A DNA stretch of 64,000 bases from an uncultured Clostridium sp. (GTDB lineage: Bacteria; Bacillota; Clostridia; Clostridiales; Clostridiaceae). Positions 18,655 to 25,016 of the stretch are shown piece after piece (position 1 is the first letter of the stretch; each line of letters begins with the position of its first letter). The translations under genes were made by a program, and so were the position numbers. Below the pieces are notes generated by a model. The model was not told where the DNA came from, searched no databases, and saw nothing but the letters and a program-made list of their open reading frames with translations. The DNA lies in the NCBI RefSeq assembly GCF_947072515.1, contig NZ_CAMTIG010000010.1:1-64000 (forward strand), read 5' to 3'.

Positions 18655-20085
18655 TTAATCTTTCCAAATATCTTCTCCATAACTCTTCCTTAAAGGGCAT
18701 CCCTCCTCCAGCTTAAATGTTCTCTCCCTACTTGCTCTTAAAAATTTTATTTTCTCTTTCTTTAAATTCCAAAGTTCATCTGAAAAACTATAATTATGAG
18801 TTACAAAAAACACCATGACTTTCGATTCTATTAAACCATTAATAATATTATCTGAAATAACTTTCCCCTCCCTATCATTAGTTGAACTAAATGCTTCATT
18901 AAATAAAACTAGAGAGTCTTTTTTTATTTCTTCCATTAAATCCCTCATTCTTTTTAATTCTTCCTCAAGCTTTCCTCCTGTTAACCCTTTATCTTCTTCT
19001 CTTTTAAAATGTGTAAATATATTTTTAAACACCTTGCTTTTATACTCTGTTGCTAAAGTTATCAACCCACTTTGGAAGAGAATTTGATTTTCCCCAATAC
19101 TTTTTAAGAATATTGTTTTTCCGCCTCTATTTGCTCCAGTTATAATAATTAATTCTTCATTGTTACAAACTAAATCATTTCCCTTTACATCTATATCTTT
19201 CTTTAAACTTAAAACAATTTCTTTTACATTCTTAACTTTAAAATTCTCTCCTTCTTCTCCATAAGAAATATCAATTTTATTTTCCATACAACTTTCATAT
19301 AACTTTATTCCACCTATATAAAACTTTAATTCAAAACTTAAATTAATAAAAAACTCTTTTATTCCATTACAAGCATTTTCTATTACATTTCCAATTTCAT
19401 TTAAACTTTTATTCTTTATTAAAGTTATTGTATCTAATGCTCCACTATCTCTTTCATTAACTAAAAAAAACTCTTTTTCTTTCTTATGAATTATTTTTCT
19501 CATTAATGAATCTTCTTTTTTCTTATCTACTAATGCTAGTTCATTCAATTTATTTCCTTTTCCAAGCCTACCTTTTATAAATATTCCTTCATTAAACTTT
19601 AGCTCAGTCAGTATTCTCTTTAATTTTTTTAAATAGCTTTCATCTAGCACCATAGCTATTTCTTTGGATAGTCTAATTAATCCTTCACTCTTTAATTCTC
19701 TTATTCTTAATTCATCTTCTATTTTTCTAAGCTTTTCTAAAAACTTTTCAATTACTAAGATTCCTCTATTCACTCTATTTATTGGATATTCTGAAAACAA
19801 ACTATGGAGTACTTTCTCTTCTTCTTCTATGGCTTCATCTGCTATACTTTTTAATTTCAATGCTAACTTATCATTATTTATAAAATCTTTTAATATAGAT
19901 TGCCTCCATTTTATATCTTCTATTTTAGTTAATGGATTTAAAAGTATCTCTTCTAACTCCCTATCATCCATTATCTCTAATATCCATTCCATTTCTAAAT
20001 CAAATATTTTATTTTCATCATTTATAGTTTTTTTATAATTTCTTATAAAATCTTTTTCTCTAAAAAGTAGATAACTCTTAATCAT
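18655..20085 (-). CDS. MutS-family ATPase, second of a tandem pair
   Basis: A 476-residue protein with a C-terminal MutS domain V ATPase and no mismatch-binding (domain I) region. The Walker A loop is ITGANRGGKTIFLKSIG; the Walker B-like segment is LVLFNEAFSSTND, followed by the switch histidine in VFFVTHNYSF. The upstream half is helical and corresponds to the core/lever part of MutS proteins, with LKSEGLIRL near residue 130. Its start overlaps the previous gene by 8 bp, so the two are translationally coupled and may form a heterodimer. Both are downstream of a fluoride riboswitch. DNA-repair activity is an inference. Confidence 0.82.
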   Translation of the reverse strand: MIKSYLLFREKDFIRNYKKTINDENKIFDLEMEWILEIMDDRELEEILLNPLTKIEDIKWRQSILKDFINNDKLALKLKSIADEAIEEEEKVLHSLFSEYPINRVNRGILVIEKFLEKLRKIEDELRIRELKSEGLIRLSKEIAMVLDESYLKKLKRILTELKFNEGIFIKGRLGKGNKLNELALVDKKKEDSLMRKIIHKKEKEFFLVNERDSGALDTITLIKNKSLNEIGNVIENACNGIKEFFINLSFELKFYIGGIKLYESCMENKIDISYGEEGENFKVKNVKEIVLSLKKDIDVKGNDLVCNNEELIIITGANRGGKTIFLKSIGENQILFQSGLITLATEYKSKVFKNIFTHFKREEDKGLTGGKLEEELKRMRDLMEEIKKDSLVLFNEAFSSTNDREGKVISDNIINGLIESKVMVFFVTHNYSFSDELWNLKKEKIKFLRASRERTFKLEEGCPLRKSYGEDIWKD

Positions 20086-21607
20086 TTAAAATTCGCTCCT
20101 TTATACTTTTATAGTCCAATCCATATTTTTTCACTATATCTATGGCATAAACTTCCCCTAAAGCTTCTTTTCTCTCTATTTTATAAGTTCTCTTATTGTC
20201 AGAAGCAGATGCTACTAAAGAAACTGTTTTTGGATACTCATTAAGCTCTTTAATAAATGTTACGTATATACAAATACAATCTTTCTTTACTATTTCCTCC
20301 ATAACTTTTCCGCCTAAAAGAATTCCATCATCCACTGCTGTAGATGAAAACAACTCATTTAAAATGACAATAGAATCTTTTGTTATTTCATCTAAAATAC
20401 TTTTTATTTTAACAACATCTTTCTCTAACATGCTTTTTAAATCCATAGCTTTTTCCCCTCTTCCAAAGTGGGTAAACATCTCTTTCCATAAAAAAAGTTT
20501 GCTTTCTCTTCCTTGAACCTTTCCACCAAGACTTGCAAAGAAATGTATTTGTCCAAATGTTTTTGCAAAGGTTGTTTTTCCCCCACTATTAGGGCCACAT
20601 ACTATGAAAATCCTTTCATCTTTTTCTAATAAAAAATCATTTGTTATTATCTCCTTTTTAGAATAAATATTTTTATTTGCTAAAGATAAAGAGAAAATTT
20701 CTTTCCCATATATTTCTTTATCTTTATTTATTTTGGGATAGTTAAACTTTAATTTATTAAACCTTTTCATAAACTTTAAATAAGAAATATAAAATCTCAC
20801 TTCTTTATAAAATAATCTTATCTTCTCATCAATAAACTCTTTATATTTATTTTTATATTCATTTAACCTTCTGAATATATTTTCATTTTCATTTTTAATA
20901 AGATCTAAAATTCTTTTTTCTAATGAACCCATTTCTATTTTCTCATTAAAAGAACCTCTATAATCTTTATATTTATTTATAAATGGCTCAAGTACTTCTT
21001 TAATATCATTATCGCTCTCTTTATAATCTTCAAACTCTTTACTTTGAAAATTTATTAAACTTATCTTTAATCCCTTTATAGATAAAATGTATTCTATTTT
21101 TCCTAATTCCTCTTTAATGTCTTTTGTTTCTTGTAATAGTAAATTAAATCCCTTTGTTTTTACATATTCATTTATCATTCCTTTTATATAATTTAATCCT
21201 TCTGACTTTAATCTTCTTTCATTTAATCTTTCATTTAATTCTCCTATCTCTATTAGATATTCCTCTATAACTTCTAAAAATATTCTATCTTTTTGAGCTT
21301 CTAAATCTAATTTATTTACCCTTACAATACTCTTATCTATTCTATTAATTACTTGTATAAACTTTTCAATACTCTCAAACAATTTTTCATTTTCTAAATC
21401 CTTAAATATCTCTTGCCTATATAAAATCTCCTCTTTACTTTTTAATGGAGATTTATATATCTCTTCTAAAAAAGAATCATCATATTCCCCTACAAACTCT
21501 TTTATTAAATCACCTATCTCTAAATCAATTAAAATTTCCTCCTTTACTTTATTTACCCTCTTTTCTTTCTGAGCTAAATCCTTAAATAAAATACTTTTCT
21601 TTTCCAT
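20078..21607 (-). CDS. MutS-family ATPase, first of a tandem pair
   Basis: A 509-residue paralogue of the downstream gene. The Walker A loop is VCGPNSGGKTTFAKTFG and the Walker B region IVILNELFSSTAVDDG; the post-Walker B histidine is replaced (IYVTFIKEL), which may indicate an ATPase asymmetry between partners. The N-terminal half is helical with coiled-coil-like stretches and the shared RLKSEGLNYI motif. No domain I mismatch-recognition or Smr nuclease domain is present. The start at ATG-GAA follows TTTAGGTGA; a GTG three codons upstream is inside the RBS. It is the first gene after the fluoride riboswitch terminator at 21649-21677, so expression should rise with fluoride. Confidence 0.82.
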   Translation of the reverse strand: MEKKSILFKDLAQKEKRVNKVKEEILIDLEIGDLIKEFVGEYDDSFLEEIYKSPLKSKEEILYRQEIFKDLENEKLFESIEKFIQVINRIDKSIVRVNKLDLEAQKDRIFLEVIEEYLIEIGELNERLNERRLKSEGLNYIKGMINEYVKTKGFNLLLQETKDIKEELGKIEYILSIKGLKISLINFQSKEFEDYKESDNDIKEVLEPFINKYKDYRGSFNEKIEMGSLEKRILDLIKNENENIFRRLNEYKNKYKEFIDEKIRLFYKEVRFYISYLKFMKRFNKLKFNYPKINKDKEIYGKEIFSLSLANKNIYSKKEIITNDFLLEKDERIFIVCGPNSGGKTTFAKTFGQIHFFASLGGKVQGRESKLFLWKEMFTHFGRGEKAMDLKSMLEKDVVKIKSILDEITKDSIVILNELFSSTAVDDGILLGGKVMEEIVKKDCICIYVTFIKELNEYPKTVSLVASASDNKRTYKIERKEALGEVYAIDIVKKYGLDYKSIKERILND

Positions 21608-21640
21608 TTTATTCACCTAAACTTTCAATTTATTTTGAAA

Positions 21641-21735
21641 ATAAAAATGACTTCTACTTAAAACTTAAGTAGAAGTCATCAGCTAAAATTAGCATTTAAG
21701 ATATTATCTAAAGGAGCACTTCATTCCTCTTTTTT
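21641..21735 (-). ncRNA. Fluoride riboswitch (crcB motif) before the MutS-like pair
   Basis: On the minus strand the aptamer reads GGA-ATGAAGTGC-TCC (P1), a linker with a small hairpin, GCTAA/TTAGC (P2), then the hallmark TGATGACTTCTAC. GAAGT in the P1 loop pairs with ACTTC of the 3' segment, the diagnostic pseudoknot. The same 3' segment is captured by a 13-bp terminator stem (GACTTCTACTTAA with TTAAGTAGAAGTC, 21649-21677) followed by a T-rich tract. Fluoride binding should prevent termination. The linker between P1 and P2 is longer than in the second copy. Confidence 0.85.
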
Positions 21736-21781
21736 CTTTTATTATAACTCTTTTATTTACAATAATATCTTTTTTTTACAA

Positions 21782-23008
21782 TTATTCATTTTTATTTTTC
21801 ATTTCACTAATTTGATCAACCTTTTTCACTATTTTTTCTGCTAGGAATGCTGCTATTAATATAATAATCCAACTATTACAACTAAAGAAAAATATTAATA
21901 ATACTATTGAAATCTTATAATTTCTAAGAACTCCAGCAAGCATAGTTCCCATAATTATAGATGCTGCAAAAGACATATTAAGTCCTAACATATATGCACT
22001 AGCCATACCTATAGCTGCCCCTGAAAACATAATTGGGAAAATAGGTCCACCAAGCCAGCCTGTATTTATACATATTTTACTTGCAACTGGTTTTATTAAT
22101 CCAATAATTATAAGCATTCCAATCCCTAACCCCACACTTGTATTTATTAATGCTCGTAATGTATGTTCTCCTGAAAACAATACAAATGGAAGTGAAATTG
22201 CTAGTCCTCCTAAAATTAATCCACCAACAACTGCATTTGCTATTTTATATTTCTTTAATGGTTTAAATACTCTCACTATAATTTTATCTAACACAGCCAT
22301 ATATAAAACCATTACCAACCCTATTATAAATAAAGGAATTAAATATTCTATCTCTTTTTTACCTATAATAACTTTAGAAAACTTAGTTATAAAAGAAACT
22401 TTATCATCTAATTTTTCTAAAAGTAAAAACATTATAGTTGAAAAGAAAATAATACTTCCATATAAAACCCTCTTAAAATTTTTAATTTTCTTTTGATCAG
22501 TTTCATCAATAAAATTATAAAATCCATAATACGGTACTTCAAAAATCCTTTTAAACTTTGATTTAATCTCTACTTTCTCATGCTTTTCTCTTTTAAATCC
22601 ATACTTTAAATATTCACCAGTTAAAGTTGACGTTCCACCTATAATTCCACTTAAAGCTGCTTCTGGTCCTACTGTTCCTCCAAACCATAAAACTGCAAAT
22701 ATTTTAACGATTGCTTTAGGTAAAGTTCTATATTCTACCCTTTTTGTCTTTTTAAATTCATGTAAAATCTCTTCCATTGATTTTGGATAACTTCCAATAT
22801 ACTTTTCGCATAGTCCTACTACAATTCCACCTATTATACATACTATTAAAATTAATATTTTACTGTTTTTCTCTAAAATAAAATTTTCCCAAAATATATG
22901 TATTCCTAAATAAACTAGTAATAAGAATAGCCATATTATAAACCCTATTATTGCTCCTATTAAAATAGCATATAATAAAGTCCCTATTCCTCTCAGCAAT
23001 TTATTCAT
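21782..23008 (-). CDS. CLC family anion channel/antiporter, divergent branch
   Basis: A 408-residue membrane protein with about ten helices. CLC landmarks are present but atypical: GSYPKS in place of GSGIP, TVGPEAALSG in place of GREGP, and GWLGGPIFPIMF for the third anion-binding motif. The GPEA form is typical of a divergent CLC branch. It lies next to two fluoride riboswitches, so fluoride export is an attractive role, but the diagnostic residues of characterised CLC-F proteins are not evident and the riboswitch does not precede this gene. It is transcribed 20 bp after its TetR regulator. Confidence 0.75.
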   Translation of the reverse strand: MNKLLRGIGTLLYAILIGAIIGFIIWLFLLLVYLGIHIFWENFILEKNSKILILIVCIIGGIVVGLCEKYIGSYPKSMEEILHEFKKTKRVEYRTLPKAIVKIFAVLWFGGTVGPEAALSGIIGGTSTLTGEYLKYGFKREKHEKVEIKSKFKRIFEVPYYGFYNFIDETDQKKIKNFKRVLYGSIIFFSTIMFLLLEKLDDKVSFITKFSKVIIGKKEIEYLIPLFIIGLVMVLYMAVLDKIIVRVFKPLKKYKIANAVVGGLILGGLAISLPFVLFSGEHTLRALINTSVGLGIGMLIIIGLIKPVASKICINTGWLGGPIFPIMFSGAAIGMASAYMLGLNMSFAASIIMGTMLAGVLRNYKISIVLLIFFFSCNSWIIILIAAFLAEKIVKKVDQISEMKNKNE

Positions 23009-23028: not shown

Positions 23029-23646
23029 TTATAAATTTTCTATAATCTCATAAAATGCAATTAATCCACTTTCTAAAACTCTTATATCTCCCTTAGTTAA
23101 ACACCATTGAAATGCAAGTCCTCTAGTAAAACTATCTATTATTAAAAAAACTTCACCTTTCGTTCTTCCTTTTTTAAACTCACCACTATCAATTCCTTGC
23201 TCAATTAGAAACTTTAATGGTTCTGAGTATGCCCTATTATCAAAATTACTTTTTCTATCATTTATGCTATCTGTTAAATTTGTTATAAATGCTCTAGATG
23301 TTAATTTATACCCCATTTTTTCTATATATTCATTTTCTAATTTTACAAAAAACTTTATTTTTTCTTTTATCTGAATATTATTATTTTCTAAATCAAATTT
23401 CCTATACTTCTCTAACACATATATATCTAACTTTTTAAATATATATTTACTCATATCTTCATAATAGTTAGCTTTTATAATATCGTCTTTTGACTCAAAA
23501 TGTACATAAAAGGTTCCTTTAGCAACTCCCGCTTCTTTACAAATTTCACTTACAGTAATATTTTCATAGCCCTTCTTATCTACTAAATCCATTGCTACTT
23601 TAAATAATTTTTCTTTCGTTAATCTTGATTTTTCTTCTCTTTTCAT
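23029..23646 (-). CDS. TetR/AcrR family regulator of the CLC gene
   Basis: A 205-residue repressor. The N-terminal helix-turn-helix is ITVSEICKEAGVAKGTFYVHFESKDDI, a textbook TetR sequence. The C-terminal ligand-binding domain is unremarkable, with IDSFTRGLAFQWCL near the end. The gene is first in a two-gene operon with the CLC transporter and has a perfect palindromic operator between its promoter and RBS, indicating autoregulation. The ligand is not known. Confidence 0.87.
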   Translation of the reverse strand: MKREEKSRLTKEKLFKVAMDLVDKKGYENITVSEICKEAGVAKGTFYVHFESKDDIIKANYYEDMSKYIFKKLDIYVLEKYRKFDLENNNIQIKEKIKFFVKLENEYIEKMGYKLTSRAFITNLTDSINDRKSNFDNRAYSEPLKFLIEQGIDSGEFKKGRTKGEVFLIIDSFTRGLAFQWCLTKGDIRVLESGLIAFYEIIENL

Positions 23647-23656
23647 TTCTCCTCCT

Positions 23657-23674
23657 AAATGACCGCGGTCATTT
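23657..23674 (-). promoter_or_regulatory. Palindromic TetR operator
   Basis: A perfect 18-bp palindrome with half-site AAATGACCG. Its GC-rich centre (GACCGCGGTC) stands out sharply in AT-rich surroundings. It lies between the promoter and the RBS of the tetR gene. Confidence 0.8.
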
Positions 23675-23711: not shown

Positions 23712-23761
23712 AAAAAAAACCTCAAAGCAAAATTAGTATATAACTAATCTTACTTTAAGGT
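23712..23761 (-). terminator. Terminator of the small fluoride-linked operon
   Basis: ACCT..AAAG pairs with CTTT..AGGT, extended by ATTAGT/ACTAAT, followed by eight T on the minus strand. It separates the two small genes from tetR. Confidence 0.8.
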
Positions 23762-23775
23762 CTTTATCTATCAAC

Positions 23776-24201
23776 TTATTTTCCCAGTGTATTTATCCAC
23801 TTATCTGCTATTTTTTCTTCATGTTTTTTAAACTTCTCATATTTTTTATATTTTCTTAAAACATTTTTTATTTCTTTATCTAAATCTCTAATTTCCATAT
23901 ATTCTACAATGCCTTCATGAGCGTAAATATCACGTATTGCTTCACTTTCTGCTCTTTTTTCCTTAACATCATTTAGGTTATTTAATAATCTCTTGAATAA
24001 ATCCTTTTTACTAGCAACCTCTGGATCTGCTCCTTCATTTGCTATTGCTAAAAGAGTCTCTAACCTCTTTTTTGTATGTTTAAGTGTTACATCATTCAAA
24101 TCATCTTCTATTCCATATTCCTTAAGGTACTTATGAAAATTTTCTAAATTATCTTCACCTTCAAAAACTTTTAAAATTTCTACTTTTGTTAACTCTTCCA
24201 T
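23776..24201 (-). CDS. Uncharacterised 141-aa helical protein under a fluoride riboswitch
   Basis: A soluble, strongly charged, mostly helical protein (many Lys/Glu; segments HTKKRLETLLAIANEG and KEIKNVLRKYKKYEKF). No signal peptide, membrane segment or recognised domain. The start ATG-GAA-GAG is preceded by GAGGTGG at good spacing; a GTG three codons upstream lies in the RBS. It is the second gene of a two-gene transcript that begins with a fluoride riboswitch, so a role in fluoride tolerance is suggested by regulation only. Confidence 0.75.
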   Translation of the reverse strand: MEELTKVEILKVFEGEDNLENFHKYLKEYGIEDDLNDVTLKHTKKRLETLLAIANEGADPEVASKKDLFKRLLNNLNDVKEKRAESEAIRDIYAHEGIVEYMEIRDLDKEIKNVLRKYKKYEKFKKHEEKIADKWINTLGK

Positions 24202-24221: not shown

Positions 24222-24359
24222 TTAATGTTTTCTATGATTATATTTATTTCCTTCGAGTTTATGTTCAGCCTTTTCTTCTTCTTTTCTAATTTCATCTAGC
24301 TTAACTCTTTTTTTAATAACCATTTCCTCTTTATATCTTCTATCTCCTGTATTACTCAT
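24222..24359 (-). CDS. 45-aa charged microprotein under a fluoride riboswitch
   Basis: A short gene starting MSNTGDRRYKEEMV and ending GNKYNHRKH, with a well-placed GAGGTG upstream. The protein is very basic/acidic mixed charge (K, R, E about half of the residues), probably a single helix. It has no recognised family. It is the first gene after the terminator of the fluoride riboswitch and lies 20 bp before the 141-residue gene. Confidence 0.72.
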   Translation of the reverse strand: MSNTGDRRYKEEMVIKKRVKLDEIRKEEEKAEHKLEGNKYNHRKH

Positions 24360-24415: not shown

Positions 24416-24503
24416 CAAAAAAAAGCCAATAATATCTACACGTGTAATCTTTATATATGTAGAAGTCATTAGCTTATAGCGGTTAAAGGTTAACTTCATA
24501 ACC
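24416..24503 (-). ncRNA. Fluoride riboswitch (crcB motif) before two small genes
   Basis: The minus strand reads GGTT-ATGAAGT-TAACC (P1), TTTAACC, GCT-ATA-AGC (P2), then TAATGACTTCTAC. GAAGT in the P1 loop pairs with ACTTC, forming the fluoride-site pseudoknot. The expression platform pairs AGCTAAT and TCTACA of the aptamer with TGTAGA and ATTGGCT downstream (24424-24474), followed by seven T. This closely fits the published crcB consensus. Confidence 0.93.
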
Positions 24504-24532
24504 TATTATTTACTTTTTTTCTTTCTGTTATC

Positions 24533-24561
24533 AGTATATCTCTTTTATACCTTTTTTTCAA
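24533..24561 (-). promoter_or_regulatory. Promoter of the riboswitch transcript
   Basis: TTGAAA (-35), 17 bp, TATACT (-10) on the minus strand, about 30 bases upstream of the aptamer. Confidence 0.68.
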
Positions 24562-24590: not shown

Positions 24591-25016
24591 TTATTTCTTC
24601 ACATTAAACAATTCATAAAAATAATCCCAATCTTCTTTTAATTCATCCTTTTCTTTTTTTCTTTCCTCATCTACTTCTTTATCATATACACAATATATAT
24701 GCTTGCTTGTAAATCTTTCTGTAACCTCAACTTTATATGCTGTAATTACGCATTTAACATTTCTTTTATAGCTCTTTATAACAACTCTTAATATCTTTCC
24801 ATTATAATTTTTTTCATAATAATAAACTTCTGATTTTCTAGATGATTTATATACATAATCTGGATTTTCTAATATATCTACTATTTTTTTTAATGTTATC
24901 TCTCCATGCTTTAAATGTATGTGCTTTTTATAATTTCTATAATATAAAACTACCTTTCTATGTAATTTAGCTTCTATTTTGAAAACCAACAATTTATTTT
25001 CGTAATAAAATCCCAT
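24591..25016 (-). CDS. Small basic protein, possible PBECR/BECR-fold nuclease
   Basis: A 141-residue soluble protein. The core has HIHLKHGEITLKKIVDILENPDYVY, a YYYEK beta strand, then LRVVIKS and CVITAYKV. This order (conserved His, then helix ending in NP-D-V, then VVIK and TAY strands) resembles the phage-type Barnase-EndoU-ColicinE5/D-RelE-like families. RNase activity is an inference from this similarity. The C-terminal tail is highly charged. It is a single gene with no recognisable antitoxin neighbour, so it may be a housekeeping relative rather than a toxin. Confidence 0.6.
   Translation of the reverse strand: MGFYYENKLLVFKIEAKLHRKVVLYYRNYKKHIHLKHGEITLKKIVDILENPDYVYKSSRKSEVYYYEKNYNGKILRVVIKSYKRNVKCVITAYKVEVTERFTSKHIYCVYDKEVDEERKKEKDELKEDWDYFYELFNVKK

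Follow-up and report, generated by a model that had tools for sequence, protein, structure and literature searches.

The locus lies on the minus strand of a 64,000-nucleotide stretch of contig NZ_CAMTIG010000010.1 from an uncultured Clostridium sp. (the whole stretch analysed, hereafter the window), where a fluoride riboswitch is followed by two small genes, designated orfA and orfB, and then by a TetR-family regulator, a CLC-type gene and a second fluoride riboswitch standing before two MutS-like genes. The features are listed below in the direction of transcription, the last one being located on another contig of the same genome.

24533..24561 (-), sigma-A-type promoter-like site TTGAAA-17-TATACT, recognised solely from its similarity to the consensus
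24453..24512 (-), fluoride riboswitch aptamer RS1 (RF01734, crcB motif), Rfam covariance model, 54 bits
24416..24475 (-), expression platform in the minimum-energy fold: terminator hairpin and U run, sharing the aptamer 3' strand
24222..24359 (-), orfA, 45 amino acids, highly charged (pI 9.6), without a Pfam or NCBIfam family
23776..24201 (-), orfB, 141 amino acids, predicted all-helical, no family over cut-off, narrow clostridial family
23717..23763 (-), intrinsic terminator closing the orfA-orfB unit, 20 pairs and a T run
23657..23674 (unstranded), perfect 18-base palindrome AAATGACCGCGGTCATTT, placed after the promoter-like site of tetR and before its start
23029..23646 (-), TetR-family regulator gene, a unit of its own, preceded by a promoter-like site (23710-23682)
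21782..23008 (-), CLC-type channel/antiporter gene, outside the riboswitch-preceded CLC group of the genus
21663..21737 (-), fluoride riboswitch aptamer RS2 (RF01734), Rfam, 40 bits against a cut-off of 34
21646..21680 (-), RS2 terminator, overlapping the aptamer 3' strand
20078..21616 (-), first gene after RS2, MutS-domain-V ATPase A
18655..20085 (-), second gene after RS2, MutS-domain-V ATPase B, overlapping that of A
L104 15882-18739 (G000:C27), fluoride riboswitch and the Hsp70/actin-like ATPase gene behind it, 900 amino acids, no Pfam family

The Rfam search of the window matched RS1 to RF01734 over the entire model (positions 1-64 of 64) with 54 bits (E 3.5e-12), the gathering score being 34 bits. 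The minimum-energy fold of 24512-24416 forms a long hairpin (24475-24423) followed by a U run, with -22.9 kcal/mol (z -3.9), and none of 200 shuffled sequences was as stable. The 5' arm of this terminator is the aptamer 3' strand itself (GCUAAUGACUUCUAC), which is the arrangement of an ON switch, while the pseudoknot is formed by the loop GAAGU pairing with ACUUC. Across the 64 genus aptamers, classified by a simple pattern and counted without correction for relatedness, this pseudoknot is the commonest form (30 GAAGU/ACUUC, 21 GGAGU/ACUCC, one mismatched combination and 12 unresolved by the pattern). The sequence-only reading of this DNA had called the aptamer, the pseudoknot and the terminator, all of which are borne out here; the aptamer model begins at 24512 and not at 24503, and the second fluoride riboswitch of the window (21737-21663, minus strand) was absent from it. 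The overlap of the terminator with the aptamer 3' strand is reported for the fluoride riboswitch class in a passage of PMC2864571 and also in a passage of PMC13273304. RS1 shares the aptamer, the pseudoknot and the overlapping terminator with those members of the class that have a terminator platform, but differs from them in its targets, two genes that do not belong to the classes usually found behind this riboswitch. From these features, RS1 is predicted to be a standard transcriptional fluoride ON switch. The promoter-like site agrees with the consensus at 10 of 12 letters; it ends 20 bases ahead of RS1 and is the best such site just upstream, in a region where promoter-like sites are no commoner than chance (25 observed and 21.3 in shuffles). 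Just upstream of RS1, positions 24591-25016 (minus strand) encode a protein of 141 amino acids whose match to PBECR3, a nuclease domain of the phage type, stays below the threshold.

The orfA and orfB frames show a GC content by codon position of 0.43/0.22/0.13 and 0.44/0.20/0.16, respectively, and GAGGTG stands ahead of both starts. Because the promoter-like site, RS1, orfA and orfB are succeeded by a 20-pair terminator, orfA-orfB is, judging from this layout, a dedicated bicistron behind RS1. Neither protein reached any Pfam or NCBIfam cut-off, and OrfA had no best Pfam match at all, in agreement with the previous claim that the genes led by RS1 fit none of the known fluoride families. The best Pfam match of OrfB was DUF1967 (PF09269), which we take to be the C-terminal part of Obg, with 16.3 bits against a cut-off of 27 (E 0.01; residues 16-40 of a 144-amino-acid frame). 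An assignment of OrfB as an Obg C-terminal domain was rejected, as DUF1967 remained below its gathering cut-off and the NCBIfam ObgE match had an E-value of 0.36. Moreover, the best PHROGs E-value for OrfB was 0.26, and no solved structure matched its profile up to E 1. The predicted structure of OrfB is all-helical (pLDDT 84) and without a clear fold relative, its sequence is hydrophilic as judged from hydropathy alone (mean -0.89), and neither a catalytic residue nor a confident fold relative was found for OrfA or OrfB. OrfB is most likely a small, soluble, helical protein of the cytoplasm and no exporter. The fluoride-riboswitch targets given in a passage of PMC11139923 comprise Fluc/CrcB, CLC-F, Na+/H+ antiporters, enolase, pyrophosphatase and formate hydrogen lyase; orfA-orfB are placed under the same kind of control, but neither OrfA nor OrfB matches any of them, and OrfB is hydrophilic, unlike an exporter.

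Fluoride aptamers of the genus were surveyed with filters that lose some weak matches, yielding 64 matches (three under the cut-off) in 51 of 67 genomes, and the downstream DNA was inspected for all of them (up to 3.6 kb for 60 and 1.5 kb for four). As many as 53 of the 64 aptamers lead CLC (20), Na+/H+ exchanger (22) or crcB (11) genes, crcB being the first gene in nine cases and a later gene in two, and the remaining ones precede MutS-like genes (2), Hsp70-like genes (2), enolase (1), orfA-orfB (1) and other or no clear genes (5). These target groups result from BLAST clustering; Pfam checks covered a single CLC, two exchangers and a single MutS, and the names of three exchangers and of the enolase come from inspection of their sequences. 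The placement of orfA-orfB behind a fluoride aptamer is a singleton, RS1 itself being the only such match. The genome studied here carries four fluoride riboswitches. Contig C27 harbours the two outside the window, of which one stands before crcB genes and the other before the gene of the 900-residue protein. Besides, close orthologues of MutS-like A were found in three genomes (G031, G198 and G127), and the gene lies behind RF01734 in all four genomes in which it was found, including that of the window (40, 38, 36 and 34.6 bits, with a cut-off of 34). As early as 2010, a passage of PMC2864571 listed mutS among the crcB-motif genes, and RS2 likewise precedes a MutS-domain pair, which is a feature of RS2 and not of RS1. 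In G127, the MutS-like pair behind the aptamer (L202 1100-2764) looks disrupted by a stop and frame changes. Because four fluoride riboswitches are present in the genome and RS2 stands before the MutS-like pair, the neighbourhood supports a putative fluoride link for orfA-orfB.

Relatives of OrfB with 53-57% identity occur in four genomes of the genus (G017, G024, G030 and G056), with second copies of 37-39% identity in G017 and G030. A 13-row profile detected OrfB in nine of 225 order-level genomes (15 matches, including that of the window), and an earlier seven-row profile had detected it in 10 of 206 family-level genomes, one of them marginal; OrfB is, by these profile searches, a narrow clostridial family. 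Thirteen of the 14 other matches are confident, two of them in G200, inside identical stretches of 8390 bases. These stretches, which contain orfA-orfB, are shared by two contigs of one metagenome-assembled genome (L013 and L014) and may be an assembly duplicate, with one locus assembled twice, or a recent duplication. No fluoride aptamer above the gathering level was found by cmscan at any of the 13 confident loci, nor at the six of them scanned down to E 0.5. The flanks covered reached about 4 kb in both directions at 10 loci, 2.5 and 4 kb at one locus and 1.1-1.5 kb at two. The check proposed in the sequence-only reading, a search for homologues that also sit behind crcB motifs in other clostridia, thus gave no case over the cut-off at these 13 loci. 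Fluoride riboswitches are nevertheless found elsewhere in seven of the eight other carrier genomes, G024 having none.

Small charged ORFs similar to OrfA stand just before orfB at four of the 13 other loci, namely in G017 (68 amino acids with two CGCH motifs, 31% identity), in both identical copies of G200 (57 amino acids, 44%) and in G201 (72 amino acids as called, 25%). An OrfA-profile search matched three of the 67 genus genomes: the present one, G017 and, weakly and elsewhere in the genome (E 0.008), G030. Since OrfA-like ORFs precede orfB in other genomes, the orfA-orfB unit is probably older than this lineage, the short length of OrfA making the distant pairs less sure. The fourteenth OrfB match is a diverged homologue in G030 (C17:72385-72795; L111 2374-2805) with an E-value of 8e-6, calculated for a single genome; hhalign gives it a probability of 94 (E 1.4e-7). 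It is convergent with a riboswitch-crcB operon at a distance of 0.9 kb, and no convergent OrfB homologue is present at that place in the related genome G056. We regard this arrangement as a hint of a link to fluoride rather than a proof.

Upstream of orfB in G024, G030 and G056, we found the palindrome TGTGATTNNAATCACA in its strict form, and a degenerate form of it is present in G198 and G197. The distance from palindrome to orfB start is 145 bases in G024 and 134 bases in G030, as read by script, and approximately 135-150 bases in G056, G198 and G197, as derived from coordinates. L012-L022, 90,988 bases in total, contain three copies of the strict form, always before orfB. This form resembles sites of the Crp/Fnr type, following what we take to be their consensus, and is considered a candidate only. 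In L015-L019, a short conserved stretch was observed ahead of the orfB ribosome-binding site. Because Crp/Fnr-like palindromes stand upstream of orfB elsewhere, fluoride control would not be common to all orfB members, or may have been replaced in some of them.

The aptamers most similar to RS1 are the two that precede the Hsp70-like gene in this genome and in G064 (48 each, with 42 for the next), in a comparison that covered 26 of the 63 other genus matches. The Hsp70-like gene was found in eight of 200 family-level genomes, with an aptamer before it in these two only; in the other six, the 1.5 kb of adjoining sequence retrieved contained no aptamer, four of these matches beginning inside the gene and thus exposing less of the leader. 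The ATPase-fold motifs of the actin/Hsp70 kind in the 900-residue protein were read by eye, its phmmer matches to DnaK are weak (E 0.014), and Pfam gives no family of this kind. The aptamer similarity suggests, as a modest inference, that the fluoride regulon of one lineage was expanded when a riboswitch was copied, considering that the aptamer comprises 60 bases of AT-rich DNA and that aptamers within one clade resemble each other anyway.

Because 13 other loci are without a fluoride aptamer over the cut-off and three orthologues have a Crp/Fnr-like palindrome, orfA-orfB was most likely recruited to the fluoride regulon in this lineage specifically. The explanation that we favour as a whole, and consider somewhat more probable than its negation, is that RS1 acts as an ON switch under which orfA-orfB was recruited in this lineage as an accessory to fluoride stress. 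Fluoride riboswitches bind fluoride as a Mg-fluoride complex. At low fluoride, transcription would stop, the aptamer 3' strand being drawn into the terminator hairpin (24475-24423), whereas binding of the complex would hold the GAAGU/ACUUC pseudoknot and prevent the terminator from forming, allowing orfA-orfB to be transcribed as far as the terminator at 23763-23717. The two genes would be an older unit of a few Clostridiaceae, under other control elsewhere, that came under a riboswitch in this lineage, probably a copy of the one belonging to the Hsp70-like gene (present in this genome and in G064), and OrfB together with the small charged OrfA may act in the cytoplasm as accessory proteins. 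Against this explanation, the seven carrier genomes with fluoride riboswitches elsewhere have none over the cut-off near orfB, where one might be expected if orfAB were generally useful against fluoride.

These same seven genomes also speak against OrfA and OrfB being general fluoride-response factors that other genomes either ceased to keep under a riboswitch or have yet to place under one, as do the 13 confident loci without an aptamer over the cut-off and the missing convergent gene in G056. An intact and dedicated RS1, the diverged homologue facing the crcB operon of G030, and a neighbouring MutS-like pair of a known target kind all speak for such a general role, which we nonetheless regard as unlikely. 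A chance rearrangement that left the riboswitch ahead of orfAB, with neutral control, would account for an arrangement seen in one genome only and for the unrelated Crp/Fnr-like palindrome at three orthologues; it is harder to reconcile with a promoter-like site, aptamer, platform and downstream terminator that are all intact and with two open frames showing codon periodicity, and we judge it quite improbable.

CLC genes are often targets of fluoride riboswitches, and RS1 might have been meant for the TetR-CLC genes, with orfAB inserted between them. The palindrome AAATGACCGCGGTCATTT is probably the operator of the tetR-CLC unit, a putative TetR operator. Because this perfect palindrome (23657-23674) is accompanied by a separate promoter-like site, the tetR and CLC genes probably lie outside the RS1 transcript, and the 20-pair terminator likewise stands between orfB and tetR. 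In addition, this CLC falls outside the riboswitch-preceded group, and its four genus homologues (G064, G011, G067 and G014) are located away from the riboswitches of those genomes, making a TetR-CLC target very improbable.

Returning to the recruitment of orfA-orfB, the riboswitch class is known and its target genes are new. The claim of the sequence-only reading that the two proteins are new fluoride-response factors stands in so far as they are fluoride-switched in this genome, by prediction, and finds no support as a general rule. The 13 loci without a switch weaken it, while the neighbourhood and G030 lend it slight support, and a fluoride-response role of OrfA and OrfB may be proposed for this lineage only. 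A bolder possibility, which we consider doubtful but worth stating, is that orfA-orfB forms an undescribed cytoplasmic module of fluoride tolerance that protects or reactivates a fluoride-inhibited, metal- or phosphate-dependent target, in a lineage that would have enlarged its fluoride regulon by riboswitch copying. If so, a helical OrfB and its charged partner OrfA, with Cys-His motifs in the G017 relative, would be switched on together with the exporters, the MutS-like pair and the Hsp70-like ATPase. Riboswitches hint at the roles of uncharacterised genes, and RS1 provides a cheap and testable hint for an unnamed two-gene unit. Moreover, the occurrence of orfB with a Crp/Fnr-like palindrome in some species and, together with orfA, behind a riboswitch here suggests how a regulon may grow.
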